A DNA stretch of 64,000 nt. It comes from Parvibaculum sp. (lineage in GTDB: Bacteria; Pseudomonadota; Alphaproteobacteria; Parvibaculales; Parvibaculaceae). The translations under genes and the position numbers were made by a program. Below, piece by piece: positions 9,687-36,372 of this stretch. Numbering within the stretch: the stretch's first letter is position 1; every line of letters starts with the position of its first letter. The stretch lies in contig JAUSMV010000012.1 in the NCBI GenBank assembly GCA_030645235.1, positions 682,001 through 746,000 on the forward strand, written 5' to 3'. The notes beneath the pieces are model-generated. The model saw only the letters and a list, made by a program, of their open reading frames with translations. It had not been told where the DNA came from and did not search any database.

Positions 9687-9704
9687 CCGGCAAAAACTGC
9701 CGCT
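9687..9704. promoter_or_regulatory. ftr-like enhancer element (FlbD site) before flgE
   Basis: The sequence CCGGCAAAAACTGCCGCT is an imperfect inverted repeat of the form GGCAA-N4-TGCCGCT. It ends 71 bases upstream of the sigma-54 promoter of flgE, the distance expected of an enhancer. Near-identical elements lie upstream of flgI, flgF, a flagellin and the fliO/flgB region. In Caulobacter such ftr elements bind the NtrC-type activator FlbD. Assigning them to FlbD here is inference. Confidence 0.65.
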
Positions 9705-9775
9705 GGGGGACCAAAAATATCCTTAAATCTTCATTTCCTGCAAGTTAAGTCATTGATTTTAATGGTATTTATGTC

Positions 9776-9791
9776 TGGCCCGCTCCTTGCT
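9776..9791 (+). promoter_or_regulatory. Sigma-54 promoter of flgE
   Basis: TGGCCCG-N4-TTGCT matches the sigma-54 consensus TGGCACG-N4-TTGC with GG at -24 and GC at -12 at the required spacing. Transcription would start about 12 bases further on, leaving a leader of roughly 40 bases before the flgE ATG. The 310-base gap between the moxR-like gene and flgE holds this promoter and its ftr-like enhancer, and no gene. Confidence 0.8.
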
Positions 9792-9842
9792 CTTAATGGA
9801 CCAAGCATTTGTGCATTTCGCATATTGGCATGGAGACAAGCC

Positions 9843-11261
9843 ATGAGTTTCTTTGGGTCTATGACCACCGCTATTACCGGTATCCGCGCTCAGTCGAGTG
9901 CATTGGGTTATATCTCCGACAATATCGCGAACAGCCAGACGACCGGCTTCAAGCGTACCGACGCAAGTTTCTATGACATCGTCACGTCATCAAACGCCAA
10001 TTTCCATCAGCCCGGCGCCGTTGTGGCCCGTCCCGGCTTCACCAACACGGTGCAAGGTTCGGTTGACGCCTCTCAGGTCGCCACCAACATGGCGATCAAC
10101 GGCGAAGGCTTCTTCATGGTGTCGCAGCGCGTGGCGACCGTGGATAACAACCCGGTTTTCCAGAGCGTGAATTACTACACGCGTCGCGGCGATTTCTCGA
10201 TGGATAAGAACGGCTATCTCGTCAATGGCGGTGGCTATTATCTGCAGGGTGTCGCGATTGATCCGGCAACGAACAATCCGGTGGGCGATACGCCGAGCCC
10301 GATTCAGGTCAACAACAGCTTCCTGACGGCCAATCAGACAACGAATATCAGCTACACCGCGAATCTGCCGAACATGCCGCAGACAGCTCATGCAACCGCG
10401 CTTAACTACGCGCAGGGCAGCGAATTGCTGATGACGGCTGCGGAAATTCTGGCGGGGACAACCTTTGCTAATAATCCGACAGGTACCGGCGTGGGCAATG
10501 GCTATATTCACGCGGCTGACGAACAGAATTTCCTTGACCGTTCGATCTCTGGCGGCGCCATTACCGCTTACGATGGTCAGGGCAATCCTCTTCCCGTGCA
10601 GATCCGTTGGGTGAAAACCGAAAACGCCGCTGACGATGCGGGCACCGGCGATGGCGACACATGGATGGCGTTTTACAAGTCCAATGACGCCGCGACAGGC
10701 ACGACCGCCAAATGGACAGGCATCGGCCAGGAATATCATTTCAACAGTGTTGGTCAGCTTACCCCTGCTGTGGACTCGACAACGATTACCAACCTCACGG
10801 TTGACGGCAACAATATCGGCAACGTCACGCTGACCCATGGTCCGGGCAACATGACGCAGTTCGCTGATAACAACGGTACGGTCTCGGTCAACAAGATCGA
10901 TCAGGACGGTTATGCGTCGGGCGAACTTGTGAACGTCGCTGTGGGTGCCAATGGTCGTGTGACCGGCACATATACGAATGGCAAGACGATCGACATTTTT
11001 CAGGTGACGTTGGCGAAATTTAACAATCCCAACGGCCTGCAGAAAATGAACGGCACGGCGTTTGCGGAAACGCAGGAATCCGGCGCGGCGATCATGGGCG
11101 GCACAGGTGAGATCATTGCGTCTGCAAATGAAGCCTCGAACGTCGATCTGGCCGATGAGTTTTCCAAGCTCATTATCGCGCAGCAGGCCTATACAGCCGG
11201 CACACGCATCATCACCACCTCGGACACGCTGATCCAGGAAACGCTGAATATGAAGCGTTAA
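9843..11261 (+). CDS. flgE: Flagellar hook protein FlgE
   Basis: A 472-residue hook subunit. The N-terminus has the rod/hook signature (MTTAITGIRAQSSALGYISDNIAN with TGFKR, residues 7-40; given by position), followed by the FlgE core INGEGFFMVS near residue 85, and the C-terminus has the matching heptad DEFSKLIIAQQAYTAGTRII and ETLNMKR. The middle (about 150-400) is variable, as usual for surface-exposed hook domains. The ATG at 9843 follows GGAGACAAGCC. A longer upstream frame of 110 codons lacks hook features and overlaps the promoter, so I rejected it. It is the first gene of flgE-flgK-flgL. Confidence 0.95.
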   Translation: MSFFGSMTTAITGIRAQSSALGYISDNIANSQTTGFKRTDASFYDIVTSSNANFHQPGAVVARPGFTNTVQGSVDASQVATNMAINGEGFFMVSQRVATVDNNPVFQSVNYYTRRGDFSMDKNGYLVNGGGYYLQGVAIDPATNNPVGDTPSPIQVNNSFLTANQTTNISYTANLPNMPQTAHATALNYAQGSELLMTAAEILAGTTFANNPTGTGVGNGYIHAADEQNFLDRSISGGAITAYDGQGNPLPVQIRWVKTENAADDAGTGDGDTWMAFYKSNDAATGTTAKWTGIGQEYHFNSVGQLTPAVDSTTITNLTVDGNNIGNVTLTHGPGNMTQFADNNGTVSVNKIDQDGYASGELVNVAVGANGRVTGTYTNGKTIDIFQVTLAKFNNPNGLQKMNGTAFAETQESGAAIMGGTGEIIASANEASNVDLADEFSKLIIAQQAYTAGTRIITTSDTLIQETLNMKR

Positions 11262-11293
11262 GGCCGGTATCAGTAACGCAGGTTTGAACTAGA

Positions 11294-13168
11294 ATGACTT
11301 TATATTCCGCCATCGGTAGCGCCATCAGCGGGCTTAATGCAAGCCAGGCAGGCCTCGATCTCGTTTCGCGCAATATCGCGAATGCGGGCACGGCGGGCTA
11401 TACGCGCAAGACACAGGTTGTGTCGAACGCGATTGCGGGTGGTCAGGGTATCGGCGTGCAGACGCTCGCGGCCACACGCAATGTTGACAGCTTTCTGCAG
11501 CAGCAGATCCGCACCGAAACGGGAAAATCCGCGAAGCTCGATGTCTATGATGCCTTTCTCTCGCGTGTGAACGCGATGTTCGGCTCACCCGACAGCGAGT
11601 CTTCGGTGGCTTCTTCCGTCACAGCCATGATCGGCAAGTTGCAGGCGGTCGCCACATCGCCGGACGATCCGGCGGCGCGTCAGACATTCCTCAACTCTGC
11701 ATCGAACCTTGCCAAGCAGCTCAATTCGATGAGTAGCCAGCTTCAGGGTATGCGTCTTGAAGCCGAGCAGAATATCGCGACATCGGTTGATACGGCCAAC
11801 AAGGCTTTGCAGTCGATTGCTGAACTCAACAATCAGATTGCGCAGCGCCGCGCGACCAATGTGTCGGTTGCCGATCTGCAAGATCAGCGCGACATGGCGG
11901 TTGATAAGCTGTCGACGCTTATGGACATCAAAGCCGTGCAGCGCGATGACGGCACGATTGCTGTGTTCACGGGTGGCGGACAGCTTTTGCTGGACAAGCA
12001 GGCGGTCAATCTCACATTTGACGAACGCACCAGCCTTGACGCCAATTCAAGCTACAGCGTTGATCCGGCCGAGCGCACTGTCGGTACGATCACATTGCGC
12101 AACGGCACGACATCGGTTGACCTCATTGCGTCGGGTGCTTTCCGCACGGGCGCGATTGCGGGATATCTTGATATGCGCGATCGCGTGATACCGCAGGCTC
12201 AGGCCCAGCTCGACGAGCTGGCGAGCCAGATGGCGCTTGCGCTGTCCACAGAAACGGTTGCCGGTACATCTGTGACCGCGGGTCTCGCCACGGGTTTTTC
12301 GATCGACTCGTCCAACATGTTGTCGGGCAACACGATCAACCTGACATACACAGACACACCTGCCGGCACGCAGCATAAGATCACCATTGTCAAAGTGATG
12401 GACCCGACCGTGTTGCCGCTCGCGGCAACTGCGACGGCCAATCCCGATGACACAGTTATCGGCATCAATTTCAATCAGCCGATGGCTGGCATTATCGCCG
12501 ACATGCAGGCGGCTTTGCCGGCCTCTGTTGTGGTGTCGAACCCAAGCGGTAATCTCATCAGCTTTGTGGATGACGGCGCGGCTGCGACATCTGACGTCAA
12601 TGCGGTGAGCACCTCGGTGACGTCCACCGGCTTGTCGGATACGGGCACGGGTCTGCCGCTGTTTGTCGATGGCAATGGCCAGAAGGTCTATTCCGGCAGT
12701 CTCGATAATCCGCCGCAGGTCAAAGGTTTTGCAGGTCGTATCACGATCAACAACGCCATTGTAGCCGATGACACATCGCTTGTGATCTACAACACAACTC
12801 CGAAGACACTTATCGGTGATGACACGCGCCCACAGGATTTGCTGGCGCGCCTCGGTGACAGCACACGCTCTTATAATGCGTTGACGGGGATTGGCAGCAC
12901 ATCGACGCCATTCAACGGCTCGGTTGACAGCTTTGCCCGTCGCATCGTGGCGGTGCAGGCTGCCCAGGCGCAGAATGCCAGCGATGATGCTACGTCGCAG
13001 TCGATGGTCTCGGATGCGTTGCAGGAGAAGTTTGATAGCGAGACGGGTGTGAGTATCGACACTGAAATGTCGAACCTGATTATTTTTCAAAATGCCTATG
13101 CTGCCAATGCCCGTGTGATTTCCACGGTCAGAGAATTGTTTGATGTTCTGTTGAGCATCGGAAGGTAA
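11294..13168 (+). CDS. flgK: Flagellar hook-associated protein FlgK (HAP1)
   Basis: A 624-residue hook-filament junction protein. The N-terminus shows the conserved SAISGLNASQAGLDLVSRNI with NAGTAGYTRK, then long helices (about residues 90-220), and the C-terminal D0 helix MSNLIIFQNAYAANARVIST. The central region (about 330-480) is made of beta-strand modules with the pattern T-DTPAGTQHKITIV and resembles modules in the FlgL and flagellins of this window. It lies 32 bases after flgE and 3 bases before flgL, so it is part of one transcript. Confidence 0.95.
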   Translation: MTLYSAIGSAISGLNASQAGLDLVSRNIANAGTAGYTRKTQVVSNAIAGGQGIGVQTLAATRNVDSFLQQQIRTETGKSAKLDVYDAFLSRVNAMFGSPDSESSVASSVTAMIGKLQAVATSPDDPAARQTFLNSASNLAKQLNSMSSQLQGMRLEAEQNIATSVDTANKALQSIAELNNQIAQRRATNVSVADLQDQRDMAVDKLSTLMDIKAVQRDDGTIAVFTGGGQLLLDKQAVNLTFDERTSLDANSSYSVDPAERTVGTITLRNGTTSVDLIASGAFRTGAIAGYLDMRDRVIPQAQAQLDELASQMALALSTETVAGTSVTAGLATGFSIDSSNMLSGNTINLTYTDTPAGTQHKITIVKVMDPTVLPLAATATANPDDTVIGINFNQPMAGIIADMQAALPASVVVSNPSGNLISFVDDGAAATSDVNAVSTSVTSTGLSDTGTGLPLFVDGNGQKVYSGSLDNPPQVKGFAGRITINNAIVADDTSLVIYNTTPKTLIGDDTRPQDLLARLGDSTRSYNALTGIGSTSTPFNGSVDSFARRIVAVQAAQAQNASDDATSQSMVSDALQEKFDSETGVSIDTEMSNLIIFQNAYAANARVISTVRELFDVLLSIGR

Positions 13169-13171
13169 GTC

Positions 13172-14659
13172 ATGCAGATTTCGTCTTACGCCCAGTCCAT
13201 TACGATGCGTAACAGCATCAGCCAGATTCAGACGCAGCTTTCTGATCTGCAGCGTCAGCTGACATCGGGTTTGAAAACAGACAGCTATGCCGGTCTTGGC
13301 GACGCACGCTCGCTCGTGCTGGCGCTGACGGGGCAGGTGCAGAAGTCCAATTCCTATCTCGACACGATCCAGCTCACGCAGCTTCGCATCGAGTCGAGCA
13401 TGAATGCGCTCGACGGTATGAACAATATTGCCTCGGAACTGAAGACAGGCAGCCTGACAAGCACGTTTAAGCTCACGGCTGGCGGTCAGACCGATTTGCA
13501 GATCACATCCGGCATGCGTCTTGCCGAAGTTGTGGATCTGCTGAACCTCAATGTCGGCGGTCGTCAGTTGTTTGGTGGCAAGGACACGCAGACAACGCCG
13601 GTTGTGACGTCAACATTGATGCTCAACGGCGACACGACCCATGCCGGTCTCAAGACGGTGATTGCCGAGCGCAATGCAGCCGATTTGGGCGATGGCCTTG
13701 GCCGTCTTGCTCTTACATCGCCGGTCGCGGGCACGGTCAATATGGCTGAGGACGCGTCGCCGAGTGTTTTCGGCTTCAAGCTCTCGAATTTTAATTCATC
13801 GCTTGGTGGCACAACTGTGTCTGATCCGGCTACCACACCGGCCAGCCTCGACATTGCTTTCAGCGCCTCGCTTCCCGCCGAAGGGCAGAGCGTCTCGTTT
13901 GACCTCACCTTGCCCGATGGCACCTCCACAACTGTGAAGCTTACGGCAACGCTGACATCGCCTGCCGGTGCCGGTCAGTTCACCATCGGTACAGATGCAA
14001 CGACGACAGCCGCGAATTTCCAGGCAGCTTTGAGCACAAGCCTTCAGACCGAAGCCAAGCAGTCTTTGGTGTCGGCCTCGACGGTGCAGGCGGGGAATAA
14101 TTTTTTCACCAACCCGCCCATGCGCGTTGACGGCCCGCCTTATGACACAGCCACCGCGCTTGTCGCCGGTACGCCCGACAACACGGTGATCTGGTATCGG
14201 GGTGACAGCACAGGTACAGCGGGTAATAATTTCATTGCCACGGTCGGCGACGGTTCGCAGATCTCTTATGGCGCACGTGCCGATCAGAGCGCGCTTGCTA
14301 CAGTTGTCAAGAATGCGGCTCTTCTCGCCGCGGTCTCCTATACGGGCACAGACACGGCAAACGAGTCCAAGGCCTATGCTGAACTTACAAAGCGTACAGC
14401 GAGCGCACTGAACCACAATGATGGTTCGCAGACGCTGGAAAATGTGATGACGGATATGGGCCTCAAGGCCGCGACGCTCGACACCGCGCAGAAGAAGCTC
14501 GACACGATGATCTCGACGAGTAAGTCGGTTCTCGCCGACACGACAAACGCCGATCCTTACGAGGTGGCGACGCGGCTCAGCTCGCTGATGACACAGTTGC
14601 AGGCGAGCTATCAGGTGACATCAAGCCTGTCACAGCTCTCGCTGGTGAAATTCCTCTAA
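13172..14659 (+). CDS. flgL: Flagellar hook-associated protein FlgL (HAP3)
   Basis: A 495-residue junction protein, longer than the roughly 300 residues of enteric FlgL. The N-terminal flagellin-type helix (SITMRNSISQIQTQLSDLQR) and TSGLKTDSYAGLG, plus the C-terminal helix (SLMTQLQASYQVTSSLSQLS and LVKFL), define it. The extra length is a beta-rich insertion (about 190-330: VSFDLTLPDGTSTTVKLTAT and following) similar in pattern to modules in FlgK and the flagellins. It ends 19 bases before a strong bidirectional terminator, closing the flgE-flgK-flgL unit. Confidence 0.93.
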   Translation: MQISSYAQSITMRNSISQIQTQLSDLQRQLTSGLKTDSYAGLGDARSLVLALTGQVQKSNSYLDTIQLTQLRIESSMNALDGMNNIASELKTGSLTSTFKLTAGGQTDLQITSGMRLAEVVDLLNLNVGGRQLFGGKDTQTTPVVTSTLMLNGDTTHAGLKTVIAERNAADLGDGLGRLALTSPVAGTVNMAEDASPSVFGFKLSNFNSSLGGTTVSDPATTPASLDIAFSASLPAEGQSVSFDLTLPDGTSTTVKLTATLTSPAGAGQFTIGTDATTTAANFQAALSTSLQTEAKQSLVSASTVQAGNNFFTNPPMRVDGPPYDTATALVAGTPDNTVIWYRGDSTGTAGNNFIATVGDGSQISYGARADQSALATVVKNAALLAAVSYTGTDTANESKAYAELTKRTASALNHNDGSQTLENVMTDMGLKAATLDTAQKKLDTMISTSKSVLADTTNADPYEVATRLSSLMTQLQASYQVTSSLSQLSLVKFL

Positions 14660-14678
14660 GCGGCGATAAACAGAATAC

Positions 14679-14710
14679 AAAAAAGGGACCAGATAACTGG
14701 TCCCTTTTTT
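14679..14710. terminator. Bidirectional intrinsic terminator
   Basis: A perfect 8-bp stem GGGACCAG/CTGGTCCC with loop ATAA is flanked by six A on the left and six T on the right. It sits between the convergent flgL and flaF genes and can end both transcripts. Confidence 0.92.
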
Positions 14711-14758
14711 CTTGTCCTGAATTTGTCGTTCAGTTGGTACGCCGAAGCTACGATGCCG

Positions 14759-15130
14759 TCACGCGGGCTTCTGCATCAGTCCGGCGGCGACCTGGCGGTT
14801 GATATTGATCAGCACATCAAGCATTTCAGGCGCGGGCGTGGACTGGATTTCGATCGTGCGTTTGAAGACGAAGATGGAGAGGTTCGCGATGTTCTGGCGG
14901 ATCTCTTTGGGCAGCTGGCTTTCGCTTTCTGTCACAGAGGTCGCGAAGATCGTCCAGATGGTGCGGTTGTAGAGGAGGGCGGGGTCAAGGTCGGCGGGGG
15001 TACTGTCTGTCCACGCCGTTTTGATCTGGTTGAAGCGGGAAGCCGCCTTCATCAGGACAGTGGCTTCGACTTCTCGCGGGTCATTACTATGACGGGCAGC
15101 TTTCGCATAGGCATCATGCGGTCTTGACAT
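14759..15130 (-). CDS. flaF: Flagellar biosynthesis regulator FlaF
   Basis: A 123-residue FlaF-family protein. Family features visible here are the N-terminal YAKAARHSNDPREVEATVL, the central TIWTIFATSVTESESQLPKE and the C-terminal LININRQVAAGLM. In Caulobacter and rhizobia FlaF promotes flagellin secretion or synthesis and works opposite FlbT. Its start overlaps the end of flbT by 17 bases, so the two are translationally coupled. The ATG at 15130 was preferred over a TTG two codons upstream. Confidence 0.92.
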   Translation of the reverse strand: MSRPHDAYAKAARHSNDPREVEATVLMKAASRFNQIKTAWTDSTPADLDPALLYNRTIWTIFATSVTESESQLPKEIRQNIANLSIFVFKRTIEIQSTPAPEMLDVLININRQVAAGLMQKPA

Positions 15131-17102: not shown

Positions 17103-18209
17103 TTAGAAGAGCTTGAGAATGCTCTGCTGCGACTGGTTGGCGATGGAGAGCGCCGAAGTGCCGAGCTGCTGACGTGTCTGAAGGGCAAGCAGGTTCGCGC
17201 CTTCTTCGTTGGTGTCGGCAAGCGTAAGGCCCGAGGCGCCTGTCTGCAGCGTGTTGATCATGTTCTTCGTGAAGTCCTGACGGGACTGCACAATGGACAG
17301 GCTCGACGCGAAGGCTGTGGCCTTTATGCGTAGTGTCTGCATGCCGCGGTCGTCGGCGTTCTGCACGATCTTCAGTGCGTCATTTGTGGCGAAGTCCGCG
17401 TAAGTCAGCTGCGTCAGGCCAATGCCCGAGGACGAGGTGCTTGTGCCATCAATAGAAAGACGCGAGGTCTGGCTTTCGTTGAAGTTCACCAGCAGGTTGC
17501 TGCCCGATTGGAGCAGATTGATGCCGTTGAAGCTTGCGTCCTGCGCCAACTGATCGATCTGGATAAGCAGGGCGTTGTAGGTATCGACCTGCTTGTTACG
17601 GTTGACGCCGTTGCTTGTCGTGACGTCTGCCGCGATGGCTGTACCGACCGCCGTACCGGAGATTGAGAAGTTATCACCTGTTGCGACCGAGAATTTGATC
17701 TGACCGGCCGAGACGGAGACCGTGAGGCCTGAAACCTGGCCGGAGAGGGCGGCTTTGAGATCGCCTGCGCTCTGAACGTTGGTTGTCAGTGTGATCGAGG
17801 TTGATGCGCCGTCACCGATTGTGAAGGTCAGCGTCTGACCGCTATTGGCAGCCGTGCTGTAATCGGTGGGGACGATTGCCGACGATGTCGTCGCGGCCAC
17901 CACTGTTGTCTGCAGAGCCTGGTTGGCGGTGGCTTTGGCCTGCTGCACCAGCTTCTGAATGGCTTCAATGCCCTGGCTTGCCGCATTCAGTGTCTGAACT
18001 GCGAGGCCCATGCTGTCGAGCAGGGTGCTCAGGTCAGACGCGCGGTTGTTAAGGCCTTGCGCCGTGAAGAATGATTGCGGATTGTCAATCGCACTACTGA
18101 CCTTCAGGCCGGTCGCAACGCGCATCTGCGTTTGATCGAGCAATCTTGCTGTGTTCTGCATGCTGAGCAGATTGGACCGCATCGCACCAGAAAGAACCAC
18201 ATCAGCCAT
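17103..18209 (-). CDS. Flagellin (first copy)
   Basis: A 368-residue flagellin. N-terminal D0/D1 (VLSGAMRSNLLSMQNTARLL, TQMRVATGLKVSSAIDNPQS) and C-terminal D1/D0 (EGANLLALQTRQQLGTSALS, ending QSILKLF) flank a beta-rich insert around residues 118-195 with GLTVSVSAGQIKFSV. A GGAGGGTTACTAAT leader precedes the ATG. A strong sigma-54 promoter lies about 208 bases upstream, implying a leader of nearly 200 bases. FlbT, encoded nearby, is known to act on such leaders in Caulobacter. Serine/threonine-rich surfaces and the adjacent TPR-glycosyltransferase gene suggest the filament is glycosylated (inference). Confidence 0.96.
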   Translation of the reverse strand: MADVVLSGAMRSNLLSMQNTARLLDQTQMRVATGLKVSSAIDNPQSFFTAQGLNNRASDLSTLLDSMGLAVQTLNAASQGIEAIQKLVQQAKATANQALQTTVVAATTSSAIVPTDYSTAANSGQTLTFTIGDGASTSITLTTNVQSAGDLKAALSGQVSGLTVSVSAGQIKFSVATGDNFSISGTAVGTAIAADVTTSNGVNRNKQVDTYNALLIQIDQLAQDASFNGINLLQSGSNLLVNFNESQTSRLSIDGTSTSSSGIGLTQLTYADFATNDALKIVQNADDRGMQTLRIKATAFASSLSIVQSRQDFTKNMINTLQTGASGLTLADTNEEGANLLALQTRQQLGTSALSIANQSQQSILKLF

Positions 18210-18416
18210 ATTAGTAACCCTCCAGGGTCATGCCGGTGTGTTTGATCCCGGCTCGGATGCCATACTGAAAATTAATGCTTAATTCTGCGTAAACGCCCCG
18301 GATGTTTAAATCCAGAGCCGCCCCGGTTTCATGACCGGAGTGGGGTAGTGGCGCTGTCTTACATCTACGGAACATTCGTTAGTCTCCTTGCGACTTTCGT
18401 GTCTGCCAGAGAGTTT

Positions 18417-18431
18417 GCACACACCGTGCCA
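18417..18431 (-). promoter_or_regulatory. Sigma-54 promoter of the first flagellin
   Basis: On the minus strand TGGCACG-N4-GTGC has a perfect -24 half and the invariant GC at -12. It lies in the 457-base gene-free stretch between the flagellin and the TPR-glycosyltransferase gene and points to the flagellin. Confidence 0.8.
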
Positions 18432-18484
18432 GAGTATAATTTTATATAAATCAATGACTTAGCTTGTTAACCCGAAACTTACCA

Positions 18485-18502
18485 AGGGCAACCTGTGCCG
18501 TG
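18485..18502. promoter_or_regulatory. ftr-like enhancer element before the first flagellin
   Basis: AGGGCAACCTGTGCCGTG keeps the GGCAA-N4-TGCCG core shared by the elements upstream of flgE, flgI and flgF, with a degenerate right edge. It begins 54 bases upstream of the sigma-54 promoter at 18417-18431. Confidence 0.55.
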
Positions 18503-18550
18503 AGCGGAAATTATTGCCTGGGGATAAGTTGCCTTGCCGGTCATGCGGGA

Positions 18551-18666: not shown

Positions 18667-20622
18667 TTAGCTCCGGGGGCTGAGCAATGCGCGCACGTCA
18701 TTGGCGATGCTCTGGACCAGCCCCTTATGATCAAATCCCGGCATCACAGAATAAGTCCGCAGGCTTGGATGCCAGGGCAGGATGCCGAGGCCCAGCTGCA
18801 TCGGGTGGTGAGCGGGCATATAGATGACGCCCTTCACACCCAGAGCGCCCGCCATTTCGGTGGCGGCATTCCACAGTCCGACCACGAAATCGAGCTCGGC
18901 GGTCAGGGCGGCGGTGCCTTCGAGGTCATTATGGGTGTCGAGGTCCGGCATCTGATGGATCGTCAGACCATGCTTTTCGGCGGCTTCGCGGATTTCAGCA
19001 TCCGGAAAGCCGAATTGCAGGTTGATGAGCTTGGCACCGTCGATGTCCTGAATGGCGGCCCAGTCGATCGGGTCGGTCGCCAGCATGTCGCGGAGCGGTG
19101 TGTGCAGGCCGGAACGCCATGTCAGGCCGATCTTGGGGCCTGAACCGAGACTGTCGAGCCAGGCTCTGGCCGTTTCCCGACGGGCCGGGTTGGCAACCAG
19201 CGGACGGCTTTCGCGCGGGAAAGAAGTAAGCGCGCGGCGACGCATGGCGGCGATGATGCCCGCGGGGGCTGTGTAGTCGAAATCGACTTCGCCGTCTTTA
19301 TAAGTGCGCAAGCCGGTTGAGCGGCCCGTTTCGGCGCGCACCGTCGCTTGCGGCCATGTGCGCTGATAGAGATCGACGAAACGTTTGTCCGTTTCGATGA
19401 TGACGTGTTTGGCTTCCGCAATAATGTCATGGAAGCAGGTTGAGAAGCGCAGATCGTCGCCCAGACCCTGTTCGCGCGTGATCATGATTGTTTTGTCGCT
19501 GAGATCTTCGCCCTGCCAGATCAGGCCGGGGAAGGGGCGGTAGGGTTTGCGCTGGCCGCTGGCAAAGCCATAGCCATAAATGTCCCAGCCATTTTCGATC
19601 TGGCCGGTGGCGAGCAGGCAGAGCGCGAAGTTCCAGAGCATCGCATCGTCATTGGGGCGCAGCGTGAGGGCCTTGGTATAGGCGTCCAATGCTTCAGCCG
19701 GGCGGCAGGCATTCTGCAATGCGGAACCGAGATTGTTGTGGGCCTCAACGAGGTCGGGACTTAGTGCTATGGCCTGATTGGCGCAGGCAATGGCATCGTC
19801 GAGCATGGCATTGTCGGCCAGCATATTGCCGAGATTGCTATAGGCGGCGGCATATTTGGGGCTGAGTTCAATGGCGCGGGAGAACAGATCAACCGCGCGC
19901 TGTGTGTGGCCGTTGTCGCGCATCAGATTGGCAAAGGCAAAATGCGCTTCATGCGAATTGGGATTAAGTTTGATCGCGCTTTCAAAGGCGGCAATCGCGT
20001 CATCAGTCTTTTTCATGATCACAAAGAGGGTTGCGGCATGAAGAACGGTGATGTGATCTTTCGGCGCTTTGGCGATGGCTTTATGCAGCGCATCAAAAGA
20101 TTCAGCCAATTCGTCTTCGTCTTCGCTGACGGAAAGAATTTTGCCGATGCCGCGAAAGGCGCGGGCGTCCGTGTCGTTGATGGCGATAATCTCGCGATAG
20201 ACTTCAAGAGCGTCGCGGCTCTCACCACCTTCATCCAGGAGGCGTGCGATTTCGAGGCGGGATTCAATATCGTCAGGGAGAAGGCGCGCGGCTTCCGAGA
20301 AGTGAAAAATGGCTTCGTCGATCAGGCCTTCTTTGACGAGAAGGAAGCCGAGGTTCTTGTGCGCGTGGGCAAAGTCCGGATCGGCGTCGAGCGCGTCACG
20401 GATATATTTGATCGCTTCCGCGTTCGAGCGCCCGGACTGATGTGCGAGAATGCCCATCAGGCGGAGCGTGCCGGGGTGGCCGGGGAATTTCTTGAGGACC
20501 TTGCGATAGAGGTTTCCGGCCTCCTTCAGCATACCCTGTGTCTGAAGGGTCATGGCGCCATCAAGAATTCTGTCAATTTTTTCTGATGTGTCGTCTTTGC
20601 GCTTCATTGCTGAGTTCGCCAT
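18667..20622 (-). CDS. TPR protein with C-terminal glycosyltransferase-like domain (FlmG-like)
   Basis: A 651-residue soluble protein. Residues about 30-340 are tandem TPR motifs (repeats such as AHKNLGFLLVKEGLIDEAIF and AYSNLGNMLADNAMLDDAIA). Residues about 350-651 look like a GT-B/heptosyltransferase-type domain with MITREQGLGDDLRF, IGLTWRSGLHTP and a C-terminal nucleotide-sugar region AATEMAGALGVKGVIYMPAH. The plan of TPR followed by GT matches FlmG, which glycosylates flagellin in Caulobacter. Its place just upstream of two flagellin genes on the same strand supports that role, though no sugar-synthesis genes are in the window. The ATG at 20622 follows GAAGGG. It has its own terminator. 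Confidence 0.72.
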   Translation of the reverse strand: MANSAMKRKDDTSEKIDRILDGAMTLQTQGMLKEAGNLYRKVLKKFPGHPGTLRLMGILAHQSGRSNAEAIKYIRDALDADPDFAHAHKNLGFLLVKEGLIDEAIFHFSEAARLLPDDIESRLEIARLLDEGGESRDALEVYREIIAINDTDARAFRGIGKILSVSEDEDELAESFDALHKAIAKAPKDHITVLHAATLFVIMKKTDDAIAAFESAIKLNPNSHEAHFAFANLMRDNGHTQRAVDLFSRAIELSPKYAAAYSNLGNMLADNAMLDDAIACANQAIALSPDLVEAHNNLGSALQNACRPAEALDAYTKALTLRPNDDAMLWNFALCLLATGQIENGWDIYGYGFASGQRKPYRPFPGLIWQGEDLSDKTIMITREQGLGDDLRFSTCFHDIIAEAKHVIIETDKRFVDLYQRTWPQATVRAETGRSTGLRTYKDGEVDFDYTAPAGIIAAMRRRALTSFPRESRPLVANPARRETARAWLDSLGSGPKIGLTWRSGLHTPLRDMLATDPIDWAAIQDIDGAKLINLQFGFPDAEIREAAEKHGLTIHQMPDLDTHNDLEGTAALTAELDFVVGLWNAATEMAGALGVKGVIYMPAHHPMQLGLGILPWHPSLRTYSVMPGFDHKGLVQSIANDVRALLSPRS

Positions 20623-20670
20623 GGAGGTGCCCTTCGATTTGTCCAATATACTGACCATGCGCAAACAGGG

Positions 20671-21196: not shown

Positions 21197-21507
21197 TGGC
21201 TCTTCTCCTGAAGTTTGAGGATTTCGCCGTAAATCTGGTCGGCAATGCCGATGCCACCGGCTTTGCTCATTTCCTTGCCGTATTCACTGACAAGCATGGA
21301 GCGGAATGTGTCTTCGCCGGGGCCGCCGCCGAATGTTTCGTCGGTTTCAATGCCTTCAAACATGGATTGGGCCATGGAAGACATGAACTGGGCTTCAAAG
21401 TCCTGCGCCGTGGCCCAGGCGCGCGTGTCGGTATGCGGTTTTGCCTTGGGCAATTGCGCCTGCATATAGGTCTGGGCGAGAGGGCTCTGGGCGGCGATGA
21501 CAGTCAT
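21193..21507 (-). CDS. flgJ: Rod-binding protein FlgJ (N-terminal domain only)
   Basis: A 104-residue protein consisting of the FlgJ rod-binding domain: DFEAQFMSSMAQSMFEGIET, then GGGPGEDTFRSMLVSEYGKE and GGIGIADQIY. The muramidase domain fused to it in enterobacteria is absent, as is usual in alphaproteobacteria, where a separate lytic enzyme opens the wall for the rod. It acts in the periplasm and is exported through the flagellar apparatus. Start and stop overlap the neighbouring genes by a few bases (ATGA type). Confidence 0.9.
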   Translation of the reverse strand: MTVIAAQSPLAQTYMQAQLPKAKPHTDTRAWATAQDFEAQFMSSMAQSMFEGIETDETFGGGPGEDTFRSMLVSEYGKEMSKAGGIGIADQIYGEILKLQEKSQ

Positions 21508-22634
21508 TACATCACCTCGATTTCGGCTTGCAGCGCACCGGCGGCTTTGATGGCCTGCAAAATGCTGATCATGTCGCGCGGGTTGACGCCAAGGGCATTG
21601 AGGCCGTCCACAAGCTCTTTCAGGCTGATGCTGCCATCCATAACAGCCAGTTTGCGGCCTTTTTCTTCTTCGATCTCAATTGCTGTGCGCGGCACAACGA
21701 CCGTCTGGCCGTTGTCTGCGAAGGGGCCGGGCTGGCTCACCTGCGGGGTTTCGGTGACGCTGATCGTGAGATTGCCCTGTGCGATGGCGACTTTGCTGAC
21801 GCGGACGTCCTGACCCATGACAATAATGCCGGAGCCTTCGTCGATGACGACGCGGGCAGGCAGATCAGGCTCGACGCGGAGCTGTTCGATTTCCGTCAGG
21901 AGCCCCACGACATTGCCGCGATAGCCTGAGGGCACCGTGAGCTGAACCGTTGTCGGGTTATCGGCGCGGGCCGTGTTGCTGCCGAGATAGGAGTTGATGG
22001 CCTGGGCGACGCGCACAGATGTTGTCAGGTCCGGATTGCGGAGTGACAGGCGCAGCGTCTGAAGGTCAGCCAGCTTAAATTCGATTTCGCGTTCAACAAT
22101 GGCGCCATTGGCGATGCGGCCATTGGTGGGTACGCCACGAACGACGGAGGCACCTTCGCCCTGAGCGGCAAAGCCGCCTGTGGCAACGGAGCCTTGTGCG
22201 ACAGCATAAACCTGGCCGTCAGCACCCATAAGCGGGGTGACGAGCAGGACGCCGCCCTGAAGATTTGTGGCGTCGCCGAGCGCGCTCACTGTGATGTCAA
22301 TATGGGTGCCTTGTGCGGCGAAGGGCGGCAGGCTGGCTGTCACCATGACGGCGGCGACATTGTCGGTTTTGAGCTGCGTGCCGCGTGTGTTGACGCCGAG
22401 GCGTTCCAACATGGCGATCAGGCTCTGCTGGGTGAACGGGGCATTGCGCAGCGTGTCGCCTGTGCCGTTGAGACCGACGACGAGGCCGTAACCCACGAGC
22501 AGGTTGTCGCGCACGCCTTCGACATCAACAATATCTTTGACGCGCGAGGCAGCGGTTGCGGGGTGTACCACGACAAAAGACGCCGCCAGAATGATGGCGG
22601 CGAGCTTTACGAAGGGCCGAAAGGGATTGAACAT
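21507..22634 (-). CDS. flgI: Flagellar P-ring protein FlgI
   Basis: A 375-residue protein with a Sec signal peptide (hydrophobic residues 10-26, cleavage after ATA) and the family hallmarks VEGVRDNLLVGYGLVVGLNG and GTGDTL, GGVLLVTPLMGADGQVYAVA, and the C-terminal LVDGLNALGVNPRDMISILQ. It polymerises around the rod in the peptidoglycan layer with the help of FlgA. A strong sigma-54 promoter lies 44 bases upstream, and the ftr-like element and CtrA box further up are shared with the divergent fliX. It is first in flgI-flgJ-flgN-like. Confidence 0.96.
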   Translation of the reverse strand: MFNPFRPFVKLAAIILAASFVVVHPATAASRVKDIVDVEGVRDNLLVGYGLVVGLNGTGDTLRNAPFTQQSLIAMLERLGVNTRGTQLKTDNVAAVMVTASLPPFAAQGTHIDITVSALGDATNLQGGVLLVTPLMGADGQVYAVAQGSVATGGFAAQGEGASVVRGVPTNGRIANGAIVEREIEFKLADLQTLRLSLRNPDLTTSVRVAQAINSYLGSNTARADNPTTVQLTVPSGYRGNVVGLLTEIEQLRVEPDLPARVVIDEGSGIIVMGQDVRVSKVAIAQGNLTISVTETPQVSQPGPFADNGQTVVVPRTAIEIEEEKGRKLAVMDGSISLKELVDGLNALGVNPRDMISILQAIKAAGALQAEIEVM

Positions 22635-22677
22635 TCACAAAAACCGTCTGCTCGCGGATTGACACATGGCTTAGTAA

Positions 22678-22692
22678 GCGAAACCCGTGCCA
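22678..22692 (-). promoter_or_regulatory. Sigma-54 promoter of flgI
   Basis: On the minus strand TGGCACG-N4-TCGC has a perfect -24 half and GC at -12. The predicted transcript would have a leader of about 32 bases. Confidence 0.82.
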
Positions 22693-22807
22693 CTTATTGC
22701 GGTTCTGATTTTTTCGTTTAACCTATTGATTTTGTTGAATAAAATAATAAGGCCGGAATGGTCCGGCGGAGGCATTTTTGGCCCTCGTGGCAGGTCTTTC
22801 CCCTCAC

Positions 22808-22825
22808 CCGGCAACATCTGCCGCT
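22808..22825. promoter_or_regulatory. ftr-like enhancer between flgI and fliX
   Basis: CCGGCAACATCTGCCGCT shares 15 of 18 positions with the element in front of flgE. It lies about 115 bases upstream of the flgI sigma-54 promoter and 15 bases from the CtrA box of fliX, so it could both activate flgI and affect fliX. Confidence 0.65.
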
Positions 22826-22839: not shown

Positions 22840-22854
22840 TTAACGCCGCCTTAA
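22840..22854 (+). promoter_or_regulatory. CtrA box upstream of fliX
   Basis: TTAA-CGCCGCC-TTAA is a perfect TTAA-N7-TTAA match located 73 bases before the fliX start. In Caulobacter fliX is a CtrA-dependent class II gene, so position and identity agree. Confidence 0.72.
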
Positions 22855-22927: not shown

Positions 22928-23359
22928 ATGAAGATTGGCGCAGGCCGCCAAATCGGTTCGACATCTGGTAAGCGTGCGGTTTCCGCGCGCAGCGCCGGGT
23001 CGGGCTTTGCCGTCAACGGTGCGGAGGAGGGTCGCGGTCTTGCGGGCCTCAGTGCTGCAACGTCTTTAGGCGCTGTGGACAGCCTCTTGGCCTTGCAGGA
23101 GACCGGCGGGCTTGAAGACGCCACTTCGTCACCGCGTCGTGCGATGGCGCGTGGCGAACAGATGCTCGACATTCTTGATGATATCAAATTGGCGATCCTG
23201 AGCGGGCAGGTGCCTGAGGCAAAACTCTCGCGCCTTTTGCATGTTGTCGAAGGTCAGCAGGCGCAGGTGCGTGATCCTCAATTGGCCGATATTCTGGATC
23301 ACATCGAATTGCGTGCCAGAGTTGAACTCGCCAAATTCGGCAGCTTCCCCCGCGACTGA
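22928..23359 (+). CDS. fliX: Flagellar assembly regulator FliX
   Basis: A 143-residue FliX-family protein. The N-terminus is basic and glycine/serine-rich, then come SLLALQETGGLEDATSSPRR and RGEQMLDILDDIKLAILSGQ and a C-terminal helix LADILDHIELRARVELAKFG. FliX couples completion of the early basal body to FlbD-dependent sigma-54 transcription. It is divergent from flgI with a CtrA box and an ftr-like element in the shared control region, the arrangement known from Caulobacter. The ATG at 22928 has AAGGGGCAATTCA in front. No flbD gene lies within the window. Confidence 0.9.
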   Translation: MKIGAGRQIGSTSGKRAVSARSAGSGFAVNGAEEGRGLAGLSAATSLGAVDSLLALQETGGLEDATSSPRRAMARGEQMLDILDDIKLAILSGQVPEAKLSRLLHVVEGQQAQVRDPQLADILDHIELRARVELAKFGSFPRD

Positions 23360-27167: not shown

Positions 27168-27899
27168 TCAGACCGGACCGGTGATCTGCGAAATGGCTTT
27201 GGCGCGCATGTCATCGGCGGTCTGCACGAGCTTGGCGGCGCTGATATAGGCGCGTTGCACATCGATCATGTTGGTCATTTCGGCGATGGAATTGACGTTG
27301 GAACCTTCGAGTGAACCCTGTACGAGGCGGGGATCGGTGACAGGTGTTGCCGTCTGCGTGGTCGTGAAAAGACCGTCGCCATTGGCTTTCAGCTCCTGAA
27401 GATTGTCGAATGTAACGAGGGCGAGTTTGCCGCGCTGGCCGTTTTCGGTTGAAACCGTGCCGTCGCGAGCGACTGAGATCTGGCCTTCATCGCTTGAGAA
27501 TGTGAGCGGTGTGCCTGCATCGGTGAGGACCGGCATGCCTTGTTCGGTGACGAGCTGGCCCTGATCGTTGATCTGGAAGTGACCCGCACGCGTGTATTGT
27601 GTGCCCTGCGGTGTCTGGATCTGGAACATGCCTTCGCCGGAAACGGCGACATCCAGCGGATTTCCGGTGGCTTTCATCTCGCCATCGGCAAGATTGCGCA
27701 CCTGGCCGTAATCCTGAACAAAGGACAGGCTCTTGTCAGGGCTGTCTTCACTGGCGACGGGCATCATGTATTCGTCAAACAGCATGCTCTGAGATTTGAA
27801 CGCCGTCGTGTTCATGTTTGCGAGGTTGTTCGCAATAGTGGACATTTCCCGCGCCATGGCGGATTGGCGTGACAGGCCTATGAGAAGTGCATTGTCCAT
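27168..27899 (-). CDS. flgF: Flagellar proximal rod protein FlgF
   Basis: A 243-residue rod protein: N-terminal IGLSRQSAMAREMSTIANNL and TAFKSQ, central VAVSGEGMFQIQT with YTRAGHFQINDQGQLVT, and C-terminal IAEMTNMIDVQRAYISAAKL. It is the first gene of flgF-flgG-flgA-flgH and is preceded by a sigma-54 promoter 60 bases upstream and an ftr-like element further up, which places it in the late class of the flagellar hierarchy. Confidence 0.95.
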   Translation of the reverse strand: MDNALLIGLSRQSAMAREMSTIANNLANMNTTAFKSQSMLFDEYMMPVASEDSPDKSLSFVQDYGQVRNLADGEMKATGNPLDVAVSGEGMFQIQTPQGTQYTRAGHFQINDQGQLVTEQGMPVLTDAGTPLTFSSDEGQISVARDGTVSTENGQRGKLALVTFDNLQELKANGDGLFTTTQTATPVTDPRLVQGSLEGSNVNSIAEMTNMIDVQRAYISAAKLVQTADDMRAKAISQITGPV

Positions 27900-27958
27900 T
27901 TTAGAACCATCAGGGTTTCAGCAATCAGCGGTGCGGTTTTCCGCCCGCACACAACAGT

Positions 27959-27973
27959 GCAGACCCTGTGCCA
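27959..27973 (-). promoter_or_regulatory. Sigma-54 promoter of flgF-flgG-flgA-flgH
   Basis: On the minus strand TGGCACA-N4-CTGC has GG and GC at the required spacing and only two departures from the consensus. The leader to the flgF ATG would be about 48 bases. Confidence 0.75.
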
Positions 27974-28048
27974 AAGACAAATTCTTGTGAGATCAATGAG
28001 TTAGGTTGATTTAGAGAGGGTGCCTCGCGTCATCATGGCAGGCTTTAC

Positions 28049-28066
28049 CGGGCAAGATTTGCCGCT
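28049..28066. promoter_or_regulatory. ftr-like enhancer in the flgF/fliL divergent region
   Basis: CGGGCAAGATTTGCCGCT has the full GGCAA-N4-TGCCGCT core seen before flgE and flgI. It lies 76 bases upstream of the flgF promoter and 160 bases before fliL. Apart from this and the sigma-54 site, nothing else stands out in the 326-base gap, and no convincing CtrA box was found for fliL. Confidence 0.65.
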
Positions 28067-31192: not shown

Positions 31193-31248
31193 ACGTGACA
31201 TAAGGCTAACATTGGCGGGTGATTTTCCGCTGATTTCGAGGCAATTCC

Positions 31249-31264: not shown

Positions 31265-31356
31265 CCCGTTAACTTAAACTTGAACAGTAATTTTCTTGCT
31301 CTAGAGGCAGGAATGATCCGGCGTGACGTTGCGCCGGACGTTGAATAACAGGGCGA

Positions 31357-35073: not shown

Positions 35074-35103
35074 AGCTCATCAGAGGAATGCTCTAAGACA
35101 AAC

Positions 35104-35140
35104 AAAAGCCGCGTGGGCAATTGTACCGACACGGCTTTCT
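35104..35140. terminator. Shared terminator between convergent operons
   Basis: Stem AAAGCCGCGT/ACACGGCTTT with one mismatch, a 14-base loop, A-rich on the left and CTCGTTTT on the right. It lies between the large TPR gene and fliP. Confidence 0.65.
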
Positions 35141-35184
35141 CGTTTTGGGCTTTGTTGTTAATCCGGACTGGCGCGAGAGCTCCC

Positions 35185-35949
35185 TCAGGTTCCGAAGCTT
35201 TGGACCAGACTGCCTGCGATCAATGTCCATCCGTCCACCAGCACGAAAAAGATGAGTTTGAACGGCAGTGAAATTGTCACCGGTGGCAGCATCATCATGC
35301 CCATGGACATGAGGACGGAGGCGACCACCATGTCGATCACGATGAAGGGCAGAAAGACAAGGAAGCCGATTTCAAAGGCGCGGCGTAGCTCGCTGAGCAT
35401 GAAACTCGGCACGATGACTTGCAGCGGCAGGTCTTTGGCTTCTTCGGGTTCGGCTGTCTCGGACAGATCGACAAAGAGTTTCAGATCTTCCTTACGCACC
35501 TGCGTCAGCATGAAGCCCTTGAAGGGCAACATGGACTTGTCGAAAGCTTCGGCAAGTTCGATTTGTTGGTTCATCAGCGGTTTGATGCCGTCTTCATAGG
35601 CCTTTGTGAAGGTTGGCGTCATCACGAAGGCCGTGAGGAACAGCGCGAGACTGATGAGCACGGAGTTCGGTGGTGTTTGTTGCGTGCCGATGGCTGTGCG
35701 CAGAAGCGACAGCACGACGACGATGCGGACGAAAGACGTCACCATGATGAAGATCGATGGCGCAAGGCTCAATACCGTGATGAGCGCAACGATCTGGACG
35801 ACGTGATCGGTCAGGCCAAAATTATCAGCGAGATCGACTTTGATTGTGTCGGCAAGAGCAGGGCCGGTGATCGCGAAAGCGAGCATGGCACCCATAACGC
35901 CTGCAACGAGCGGTAGTTTGCGCAAGATGGCTTGTCCGAAATTTCTCAC
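35185..35949 (-). CDS. fliP: Flagellar export protein FliP
   Basis: A 254-residue inner-membrane export-gate protein with a cleavable signal (ITGPALA-D) and four membrane helices (about 50-75, 93-110, 195-218, 225-250). Typical sequence includes FVRIVVVLSLLRTAIGTQQT with PPN, PTFTKAYEDGI and LRRAFEIGFLVFLPFIVIDM. It assembles the FliPQR pore of the flagellar type III export system. Its ATG overlaps the fliO stop (ATGA). Confidence 0.96.
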   Translation of the reverse strand: MRNFGQAILRKLPLVAGVMGAMLAFAITGPALADTIKVDLADNFGLTDHVVQIVALITVLSLAPSIFIMVTSFVRIVVVLSLLRTAIGTQQTPPNSVLISLALFLTAFVMTPTFTKAYEDGIKPLMNQQIELAEAFDKSMLPFKGFMLTQVRKEDLKLFVDLSETAEPEEAKDLPLQVIVPSFMLSELRRAFEIGFLVFLPFIVIDMVVASVLMSMGMMMLPPVTISLPFKLIFFVLVDGWTLIAGSLVQSFGT

Positions 35950-36311
35950 GCGCGGCGCTCCTTGATGAAGTCCACAATTTTCTGGAATTGCTGTGTGGGT
36001 GTGGTGACGGTGCTCGTGGCTTTTATCTCTTCTTCGGTCAACTCAGGTGCATCAATACCGGCCTCAATCAGCAGATTTTGTTCACCACCGAGAAGGACGA
36101 GATGTTCTTTGTTGTCGCGACGCATCAGCACGAGGCGGTGCTTGGCGTCCACGACTTTAACCTCGACGATTGTGAGGCGTTTTTGACCGCCTGTTGCGGT
36201 CAGTCCTCCGGTCGCAAGGCCAAGCTTTTTTGCGCCGTAAGCGCAAGCGCCGATGAGCCCGACAATGAAGACGAGCGAAGCGACAAAGCGAAAGATTTCT
36301 GAGAATTCCAT
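35946..36311 (-). CDS. fliO: Flagellar export assembly protein FliO
   Basis: A 121-residue protein with one N-terminal helix (about 8-30, RFVASLVFIVGLIGACAYGA) and a small cytoplasmic FliO domain (KRLTIVEVKVVDAKHRLVLM, LVLLGGEQNLLIE). FliO helps FliP multimers assemble. The ATG at 36311 starts at the family N-terminus; the longer frame has an unrelated lead. It is co-translated with fliP and divergent from flgB across a region with a CtrA box. Confidence 0.9.
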   Translation of the reverse strand: MEFSEIFRFVASLVFIVGLIGACAYGAKKLGLATGGLTATGGQKRLTIVEVKVVDAKHRLVLMRRDNKEHLVLLGGEQNLLIEAGIDAPELTEEEIKATSTVTTPTQQFQKIVDFIKERRA

Positions 36312-36354
36312 GTGCATGCCCAGTACACCGGGTGTCCCGTGACGGGGCACCAAC

Positions 36355-36372
36355 AAGGCACAATCTGCCCAG
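36355..36372. promoter_or_regulatory. ftr-like element next to a CtrA box
   Basis: The core GGCAC-AATC-TGCCC resembles the GGCAA-N4-TGCCG elements, with one changed base in each arm. It is only 6 bases from the CtrA box at 36379 and has no sigma-54 promoter beside it. In Caulobacter FlbD bound at such a position represses a class II promoter. A repressor role here is inference. Confidence 0.45.

Follow-up and report, generated by a model that had tools for sequence, protein, structure and literature searches.

The closest described system is the FlbD-FliX circuit of Caulobacter crescentus, a model cell-cycle bacterium in which FlbD is a checkpoint coupling flagellum assembly to gene expression. 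In that circuit, genes for hook, ring, rod and flagellin have sigma-54 promoters with the ftr palindrome upstream, and IHF-type sites lie between ftr and promoter. At Caulobacter fliF, the site ftr4 is reported to repress, and the relevant section of a review names fliF as the sole example of this off-arm of FlbD (PMC3930126). A CtrA-to-start distance of 23–24 nt, said to agree with Caulobacter, is given in part of a study of Rhodobacter sphaeroides (PMC6180460). In Bradyrhizobium diazoefficiens, FlbD-FliX is reported to govern exopolysaccharide as well as flagella (Dardis et al., 2021, as cited in PMC8921679). The FlbD-ftr circuit itself is already known; in the literature searched, we found no report of its reach to fliOP, flhA, fliQ or a GGDEF gene.

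Like C. crescentus, Parvibaculum encodes an FlbD orthologue and a FliX homologue, and it carries ftr palindromes upstream of the sigma-54 promoters of its hook, ring, rod and flagellin genes, with candidate IHF-type sites in between at the promoters of the window (the whole 64,000-nucleotide stretch of Parvibaculum sp. DNA analysed here). The elements of the window are very probably FlbD-binding sites of two predicted kinds, late-gene enhancers and early-gene off-switches. The second kind resembles the site taken as Caulobacter ftr4, which starts 23 bp after a CtrA box, the Parvibaculum spacing being 22–23 bp. Two features at early promoters set Parvibaculum apart from Caulobacter: a strong ftr lying upstream of the CtrA box of fliF, and a site of the ftr4 type at fliOP. 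In addition, its enhancer-type promoter signature is found at three further genes (GGDEF, 68-aa and 248-aa); in each of three Caulobacter-titled genomes, the GGDEF gene that matches best has no FlbD-type promoter.

The window contains exactly four copies of the core GGCAA-N4-TGCCG described in the first-pass annotation (at 9689, 18487, 22810 and 28051), against a mean of 0.39 and a maximum of 2 in 200 first-order Markov simulations, which rules out a chance origin of the four strong sites. The palindrome is better written CGGCA-N5-TGCCG, the earlier core being off-centre. All five elements listed by that annotation are present at their positions (Table 1). The set is larger than five, with a second element at the flagellin promoter, a degenerate sixth on the flgB side of the fliO/flgB gap, whose left half GCGGCAA is kept in 17 of 18 aligned genus loci, and further targets outside the window. 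Our scoring matrix was built from eight sites of the same genome, including the upstream site of fliF, and gene calls came from our own codon-usage script; seven window sites score at least 12, two of them inside genes (34192 and 57021). Because a scan allowing two mismatches stayed close to chance (129 found vs 106 expected), only strong copies were counted and that scan was not used.

Table 1. Flagellar genes, predicted regulatory sites and their positions in the window.
Feature	Position	Strand	Remarks
ftr element 1, enhancer type	9687..9703		for flgE-flgK-flgL; exact core, matrix score 20.0
IHF-type site, between ftr 1 and sigma-54 promoter	9746..9758	+	strict match
sigma-54 promoter of flgE (TGGCCCGCTCCTTGCT)	9776..9791	+	score 15.7, best in window
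flgE, hook protein	9843..11261	+	NCBIfam
flgK, then flgL-like gene	11294..13168, 13172..14659		downstream of flgE; NCBIfam
flagellin gene	17103..18209	-	NF009330, E 1.2e-80, below that model's cut-off
sigma-54 promoter of flagellin gene	18416..18431	-	score 14.5
IHF-type site, flagellin promoter	18449..18461	-	strict match
ftr element 2, enhancer type	18485..18501		for flagellin; exact core, score 13.1
second ftr-like element beside element 2	18504..18520		flagellin promoter; score 13.5; absent from first-pass annotation
flgI, P-ring	21507..22634	-	NF003676, above cut-off
sigma-54 promoter of flgI	22677..22692	-	score 15.5
IHF-type site, flgI promoter	22719..22731	+	strict match
ftr element 3, enhancer type	22808..22824		for flgI; exact core, score 18.5
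CtrA box, fliX side	22840..22854		perfect; one of two perfect boxes in window
fliX homologue	22928..23359	+	NF009426, E 2.1e-43, 148.2 bits, cut-off 153
flgF	27168..27899	-	TIGR02490, above cut-off
sigma-54 promoter of flgF	27958..27973	-	score 15.4
IHF-like site, flgF promoter	27991..28003	-	one mismatch, read from sequence; not a strict match
ftr element 4, enhancer type	28049..28065		for flgF-flgG-flgA-flgH; exact core, score 18.8
fliP, export gate	35185..35949	-	
fliO, export gate	35946..36311	-	
ftr element 5, predicted ftr4 (off-switch) type	36355..36371	-	for fliOP; score 10.1
CtrA box of fliOP promoter	36379..36393	-	perfect (TTAA-N7-TTAA)
degenerate sixth ftr, flgB side of fliO/flgB gap	36442..36458		score 7.8
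CtrA-like box, flgB side	36461..36475	+	one mismatch
flgB	36595..37026	+	Pfam; flgC, fliE, fliQ, fliR, flhB downstream

The four exact copies lie 72, 53, 115 and 75 bp from the sigma-54 sites of flgE, flagellin, flgI and flgF, respectively (gaps counted from coordinates), so the spacing of 50–120 bases upstream proposed earlier holds at all four (53–115 bp). With a sigma-54 matrix, these four sites are the highest-scoring in the window, the next best reaching 11.8. Between ftr and promoter there is a candidate IHF-type site, strict at three of the four promoters and with one mismatch at the fourth, and three of the window's four strict IHF matches fall in such gaps. A relaxed IHF pattern is found in only 3 of 24 promoters of the 248-aa gene, and IHF is therefore not a fixed part of these promoters.

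Across the genome, the motif alone is not specific, while the pair of ftr and sigma-54 site is. By our gene calls, 22 of the 31 exact cores lie inside genes and 9 are intergenic; a sigma-54 site scoring at least 13.6 within 140 bp accompanies 7 of the 9 intergenic copies, whereas near the 22 genic copies no sigma-54 site exceeds 12.1. The intergenic copy L023 has neither a sigma-54 nor a CtrA site. The motif's frequency in unrelated DNA, proposed in the first-pass annotation as a check, thus speaks against the bare motif, which is common in coding DNA (22/31), and in favour of its intergenic copies with sigma-54 sites. The plain sigma-54 pattern is hardly more frequent over the genome than in the control (79 vs 67), and single matches were therefore not trusted; among the 42 of these 79 places that were inspected (30 loci, 9 stretches and 3 in the window), the loci show an ftr pair only at fliK-flgD and the stretches only at the 248-aa gene. 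A composite ftr-to-sigma-54 pattern gives 14 matches vs 2 in the control, 7 of the 14 being accepted targets; among the other seven, L041, judged by position, has no sigma-54 site scoring at least 12 with our matrix. Over 21 genus genomes, the same pattern yields 205 vs 73 control matches among the matches listed, and on that basis exceeds the control in 20 of them and falls below it in one (G009, 6 vs 7).

Pairs in which both ftr and sigma-54 score at least 11, for which letter-shuffled controls gave 0, were counted over genus loci including the genome itself, related genomes that are not independent of one another. They occur at flgI in 13/13 loci, at flgF in 11/12 (one with a weak ftr), at the GGDEF gene in 16/18 (two lacking a sigma-54 site above threshold), at the 68-aa gene in 18/18 and at the 248-aa gene in 18/19, where the single miss has just 89 bp of upstream DNA. 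The GGDEF count takes one orthologue from each of 18 genus genomes, G006 being without one. The 80 loci around flbD contain 1260 predicted gene starts, and the pair is present at 38 of them, of which 32 belong to a gene followed by flgD, five to flgK and one to a gene that is flgK-like by eye.

The predicted FlbD regulon extends beyond the window to fliK-flgD, the GGDEF gene, the 68-aa gene and the 248-aa gene. The GGDEF gene looks like a diguanylate cyclase-type gene, whose product would make cyclic di-GMP. Its best match in each of 15 named genomes has ftr-like and sigma-54 sites in four (L312–L315, best ftr 11.4, 19.9, 12.3 and 18.8); the pair is absent in 11 of the 15, L322 having ftr and no sigma-54 site. 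Parvibaculum and its near relatives have the FlbD-type GGDEF promoter, and so do a Sneathiellales genome and Rhodothalassium, whose sites are of equal or lesser strength. For the 248-aa gene, three of five loci from other families carry the pair and two (L364 and L365) do not. Neither the 68-aa nor the 248-aa gene belongs to a known family, and these two, like the GGDEF gene, are not known as flagellar genes.

FlbD is encoded in the genome (L046:9195-10568) and scores 814.4 bits against NF050807 (cut-off 750), which answers the question, raised with the first-pass annotation, of whether a homologue is present. Its gene sits in the cluster fliF-fliG-fliH-fliN-flbD-flhA (fliG named by position and sequence). 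The helix-turn-helix core CLGNRTHAA-ILGISIRTLRNKL is identical in this FlbD and two Caulobacter FlbD proteins, with 44 of 54 residues of the region shared, vs 13–21 of 54 and no shared core in the other four strong sigma-54 activators of the genome; this core strengthens the FlbD assignment, which had been carried over from Caulobacter. The FliX homologue adjoins flgI and matches NF009426 over nearly the full profile, at a score below the curated cut-off, and all other FliX models likewise score below theirs. Element 3 is 15 bp from the CtrA box of the divergent fliX; the fliX promoter was dropped as an ftr4-type target since the ftr-to-CtrA distance varies in relatives.

Element 5 (AAGGCACAATCTGCCCA) has two core mismatches and no sigma-54 site nearby, and starts 22 bp after the start of the perfect CtrA box of the fliOP promoter, in agreement with its earlier description as a weaker copy beside a CtrA box. 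The genes on either side were identified with Pfam (FliP 6.1e-82; FliO 1.4e-4, 22.3 bits vs a cut-off of 22), flgB and flgC being named from the Pfam rod domain and gene order. All 18 genus loci with coverage, its own included, have a match scoring at least 10 at 22–23 bp from the CtrA box; L218, whose contig ends there, was left out of this count. In 13 of 18 aligned genus loci, the right half of the element reads TTCC or TACC, not the TGCC of the palindrome. Much of the gap around the element is poorly conserved in the genus loci. Among 15 named genomes outside the genus set, the 22–23 bp module occurs in the fliO direction in two (one weak, 8.3) and in the flgB direction in two, ftr and CtrA stand at other spacings in two, and nine have none. 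The fliOP module was found in 0/8 loci from other families and is absent in three Caulobacter-titled genomes.

The same geometry recurs at fliF. With limits of at most two mismatches in the CtrA box and an ftr score of at least 6, fliF promoters carry both sites at 22–23 bp in 66 of 72 loci, Caulobacter included, and in none of the letter shuffles; the downstream ftr-like site is missing in 6/72, and 8 of the 80 flbD loci had been set aside, either for want of fliF or because less than 150 bp preceded it. Stricter limits (one mismatch, score 8) give 57 modules in 1.51 Mb, 46 at fliF, 7 at flhA, 3 at fliQ and 1 elsewhere, and exactly one in the window, element 5. In 12 Caulobacter-titled loci, an ftr-like site starts 23 bp after the fliF CtrA box (at most two mismatches, some boxes having two) and is taken as ftr4 because of its position; it scores only 6.4–9.8 with our matrix. 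At fliF of Parvibaculum, a strong ftr lies 22 bp upstream of the CtrA box and a weaker one downstream of it, a double arrangement seen in the same genome, eight Parvibaculum-type loci and L126. The module is placed at fliF in most flbD loci, at fliOP in Parvibaculum and near relatives, at flhA in several other lineages, at fliQ in three Brevundimonas loci and at flgB in two genomes, one of Brevundimonas and one of Asticcacaulis.

Since FlbD-like sites at fliF share this geometry in 66/72 loci, element 5 most likely represses fliOP; repression of an early promoter had been proposed before, and the constant distance of 22–23 bp from the CtrA box, shared with fliF, favours it and points to fliOP as that promoter. 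At the enhancer-type sites (flgE, flagellin, flgI, flgF, fliK-flgD and the GGDEF, 68-aa and 248-aa genes), FlbD bound about 50–115 bp upstream would contact sigma-54 RNA polymerase, helped at some promoters by an IHF bend, and would open the promoter after a signal from FliX that assembly of the export apparatus is finished. The off-switch sites (element 5 and those at fliF) begin 22–23 bp past the first base of the CtrA box, so that FlbD sitting on them would occupy roughly positions -16 to +1 of a promoter driven by CtrA; for fliO, the predicted start lies near 36355. Early export genes would in this way be off while FlbD turns late genes on. We infer FlbD binding, FliX control, activation and repression from sequences, positions, conservation, spacing and the FlbD helix; the earlier reading, FlbD activating class III genes and repressing an early promoter, is supported.

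The off-switch sites might instead activate or fine-tune CtrA-driven early genes, for example by aiding CtrA binding. The strong ftr upstream of the CtrA box at Parvibaculum fliF, where an occluding repressor would be less expected, would suit this, but the downstream site would extend over the transcription start, provided that the CtrA-to-start distance of the R. sphaeroides study (PMC6180460) holds, and Caulobacter ftr4 is reported to repress (PMC3930126); we regard activation as unlikely. Element 5 could also be a chance or decayed copy without function, given its score of only 10.1, its core mismatches and its altered right half, yet every covered genus locus keeps a match of at least 10 with a CtrA distance constant within 1 bp amid a poorly conserved gap, so that a functionless copy is decidedly improbable.

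A further alternative concerns the protein. Fis-type domains can read similar palindromes, and the genome encodes four further strong sigma-54 activators, any one of which might be the reader. Two of these are NtrC- and NtrX-like by layout. Their reading helices differ from that of FlbD and among themselves, however, ftr is absent from the good sigma-54 sites of three genes (one with a PAS domain, one CsgG-like and one judged glnB-like by eye), and the 66 loci with the CtrA-ftr module are among 72 chosen for having flbD, which together make another regulator very improbable indeed.

The fixed CtrA-to-ftr spacing can serve as a search rule for any genome. It forecasts the early genes to be silenced on completion of the export gate, a set that seems to vary with lineage. 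The 68-aa and 248-aa proteins become candidate late flagellar genes. As in B. diazoefficiens, FlbD may be linked to a function of sessile life in Parvibaculum, the candidate here being, unlike there, a GGDEF gene that carries both an ftr and a sigma-54 site; a connection of flagellum assembly with cyclic di-GMP can thereby be put to the test. We lean slightly towards a broader reading, in which a CtrA box followed 22–23 bp later by an FlbD site would be a general alphaproteobacterial switch signalling that the export machine is finished and its genes should stop, placed at lineage-dependent promoters, with the same FlbD turning on a diguanylate cyclase. On this reading, cyclic di-GMP signalling would respond directly to the finished export machine.

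The core GGCAA-N4-TGCCG occurs exactly four times in the window, at the places named by the first-pass annotation and nowhere else, against a mean of 0.39 and a maximum of 2 in simulated windows. The proposed neighbouring sigma-54 promoters are likewise borne out, as these four partners rank 1–4 among the sigma-54 sites of the window (scores 14.5–15.7), with the fifth-ranked site at 11.8. Three of the four strict IHF matches in the window fall within the ftr-to-sigma-54 gaps, and the flgF promoter has an IHF match with a single mismatch. The ftr - IHF - sigma-54 layout of Caulobacter is therefore present here, with putative IHF sites; it is not universal, since a relaxed IHF pattern matched 3/24 promoters of a 248-aa protein gene (see below).

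Coordinates of the features discussed (ftr, putative FlbD site; L-numbers denote loci elsewhere in this or other genomes)
Feature	Location	Strand	Context
ftr element 1 (17 bp)	window 9687		flgE, promoter gap 72 bp
ftr element 2 (17 bp)	window 18485		flagellin, promoter gap 53 bp
ftr element 3 (17 bp)	window 22808		flgI, promoter gap 115 bp
ftr element 4 (17 bp)	window 28049		flgF, promoter gap 75 bp
ftr element 5	window 36355-36371		fliOP
Perfect CtrA box	window 36379-36393		between fliO and flgB
663-aa protein, N-terminal TPR repeats	window 18667-20658	minus	upstream of flagellin gene
PAS-histidine kinase-receiver protein	window 40135-42651	plus	immediately after flhB
DUF1153 protein, 91 aa	L046 ~14765-15040	minus	directly upstream of fliF and its ftr-CtrA-ftr promoter
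Ninth intergenic core	L023:1501-1514
CtrA + 23 + ftr module	L142:4751		between flbD and flhA, downstream gene not named
Small GGDEF protein, 238 aa	L009:1629-2345		ftr + sigma-54 promoter, kept in Parvibaculum
68-aa protein	L003:1152-1358	minus	ftr + sigma-54 promoter
248-aa protein	L303:700-1446	minus	ftr + sigma-54 promoter

The flagellar island comprises flgE-flgK-flgL-like, flaF, flbT, two flagellins, flgI, fliX and dksA, as well as flgH-flgA-flgG-flgF, fliL-fliM, fliOP and flgB-flgC-fliE-fliQ-fliR-flhB (flgB, flgC and the second flagellin named by Pfam and gene order only); its FliX homologue scores under the curated cut-off. A second cluster on the same contig (L046) carries fliK-flgD, the DUF1153 gene and fliF-fliG-fliH-fliN-flbD-flhA (fliG and fliK named from position and sequence). 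The DUF1153 protein is a putative CtrA inhibitor SciP, and the kinase after flhB, judged by its layout, a putative cell-cycle kinase CckA. The layout of the 663-aa TPR protein recalls the flagellin glycosyltransferase FlmG as described in PMC7591256; a domain search showed no glycosyltransferase domain.

The first-pass annotation had assigned the elements to FlbD from Caulobacter, and the genome encodes a candidate above the NCBIfam equivalog cut-off, with the GAFTGA motif. It is 93% identical to FlbD of a Parvibaculum metagenome-assembled genome, which makes the source genome Parvibaculum-like. Two Caulobacter proteins and 6/7 others compared share its core, CLGNRTHAA-ILGISIRTLRNKL, without change; the seventh (L088, Alphaproteobacteria) departs from it at a single residue, which is not in the last helix. 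The genome's four further strong sigma-54 activators have 13–21 of 54 positions in common with FlbD, one of them without GAFTGA, and no ftr was found at the good sigma-54 sites of glnB-like (named by eye), PAS-domain and CsgG-like genes. Together, these observations single out FlbD as the likely reader of the ftr element. A short contig with low codon-usage scores (L034, contig C41, 3381 bases), possibly a contaminant of the assembly, carries a PEP-CTERM-type sigma-54 regulator.

Across the genome, the exact core was matched at 31 places (37 matches when both strands are counted), whereas a backward control gave 9 strand matches. Our gene calls put 9 of these places between genes and 22 within them. 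Seven of the intergenic cores have a sigma-54 site of at least 13.6 within 140 bp, namely the four of the window and those of fliK-flgD, the GGDEF gene and the 68-aa gene; another lies in the fliF promoter, and the ninth has neither a sigma-54 nor a CtrA site. No genic core has a sigma-54 site of at least 13.6 (best 12.1). As genic cores are common and lack strong sigma-54 sites, the motif alone is not diagnostic and the ftr + sigma-54 pair is: the expected specificity fails for the bare motif, frequent in genes, and holds for the pair. A composite ftr-sigma-54 pattern gave 14 matches in this genome vs 2 for the control, and added the 248-aa gene to the candidate targets. In 21 genus genomes it gave 205 vs 73, above control in 20 and below in G009; G018, with 27 matches and 0 in the control, lies far above the others, many of its matches being in coding-like stretches. 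In 80 named flbD-region loci, the pair stands at 38 of 1260 predicted gene starts, of which 32 are followed by flgD, 5 are flgK and 1 is flgK-like by eye.

The fifth element does lie beside a perfect CtrA box, one of two in the 64 kb, starting 22 bp after the box start in the fliO direction. In 18/18 genus loci with coverage (a nineteenth, L218, is cut by a contig end), the two are kept at 22 or 23 bp within an otherwise poorly conserved fliO/flgB gap. The right half of the element reads TTCC or TACC, not TGCC, in 13/18. The element is weak here and changed in most relatives, yet never missing from these loci. The same phase marks fliF, where in 66/72 loci a CtrA box with at most two mismatches is followed at 22 or 23 bp by an ftr-like site (score at least 6), and shuffled fliF sequences have none. 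These include 12 Caulobacter-titled loci (ftr scores 6.4–9.8), whose site would, from its place, be ftr4. Among the six loci without a downstream ftr, L129 (Sneathiellales) and L138 (Rhodothalassium) carry one 20 bp upstream of the box, and in Parvibaculum ftr sites flank the box on either side.

The ftr4 site is reported to repress Caulobacter fliF (PMC3930126), and the CtrA-to-start distance is reported as 23–24 nt in Rhodobacter sphaeroides, said to agree with Caulobacter (PMC6180460). With that distance, element 5 would span the fliOP promoter from about -16 to +1. Given this overlap and the fliF precedent, we interpret it as a fliOP off-switch of the ftr4 type, in keeping with the early-promoter repression first suggested. 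Under stricter limits (1 mismatch, ftr score 8), 1.51 Mb held 57 CtrA-ftr modules: 46 at fliF, 7 at flhA, 3 at fliQ (all from three Brevundimonas loci) and 1 without a named downstream gene. A fliOP module was found in 2/15 named genomes (L087, Parvibaculaceae, weak; and L088), in none of three Caulobacter-titled genomes and in 0/8 other-family loci; among the 15, one Brevundimonas and one Asticcacaulis genome have a module in the flgB direction (by hand from offset -25).

The FlbD/ftr circuit, the dual use of FlbD and the IHF site are all already known in Caulobacter. The literature covered, in part and without the 1994 papers, offered no FlbD sites at fliOP, flhA or fliQ and no fixed CtrA-ftr spacing as a rule, both weak negatives.

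Counted over related genomes, which are not independent witnesses, and including our own, the pair (each site at least 11) is conserved at flgI (13/13), flgF (11/12), the 68-aa gene (18/18), the 248-aa gene (18/19, the missing locus having just 89 bp of upstream DNA) and the GGDEF gene (16/18); shuffled controls gave 0. Neither small protein matched Pfam or NCBIfam, nor the 248-aa protein the PDB. Several 68-aa promoters have two ftr sites ~32–34 bp apart. In 3/5 loci of other families, the pair also stands upstream of the 248-aa gene.

At the GGDEF gene, ftr scores at least 12.3 in 18/18 loci, both misses being owed to the sigma-54 part. Of 15 named genomes beyond the genus, 4 carry ftr-like and sigma-54 sites at their best-matching GGDEF gene (best ftr: L087, 11.4; L088, 19.9; L129, 12.3; L138, 18.8). 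An FlbD-driven diguanylate cyclase was absent from the literature covered, a weak negative whose scope stopped short of a study of FlbD binding in Caulobacter to which PMC12421884 refers. FlbD-FliX of Bradyrhizobium is cited as a regulator of exopolysaccharide, which parallels the candidate link to sessile life proposed here.
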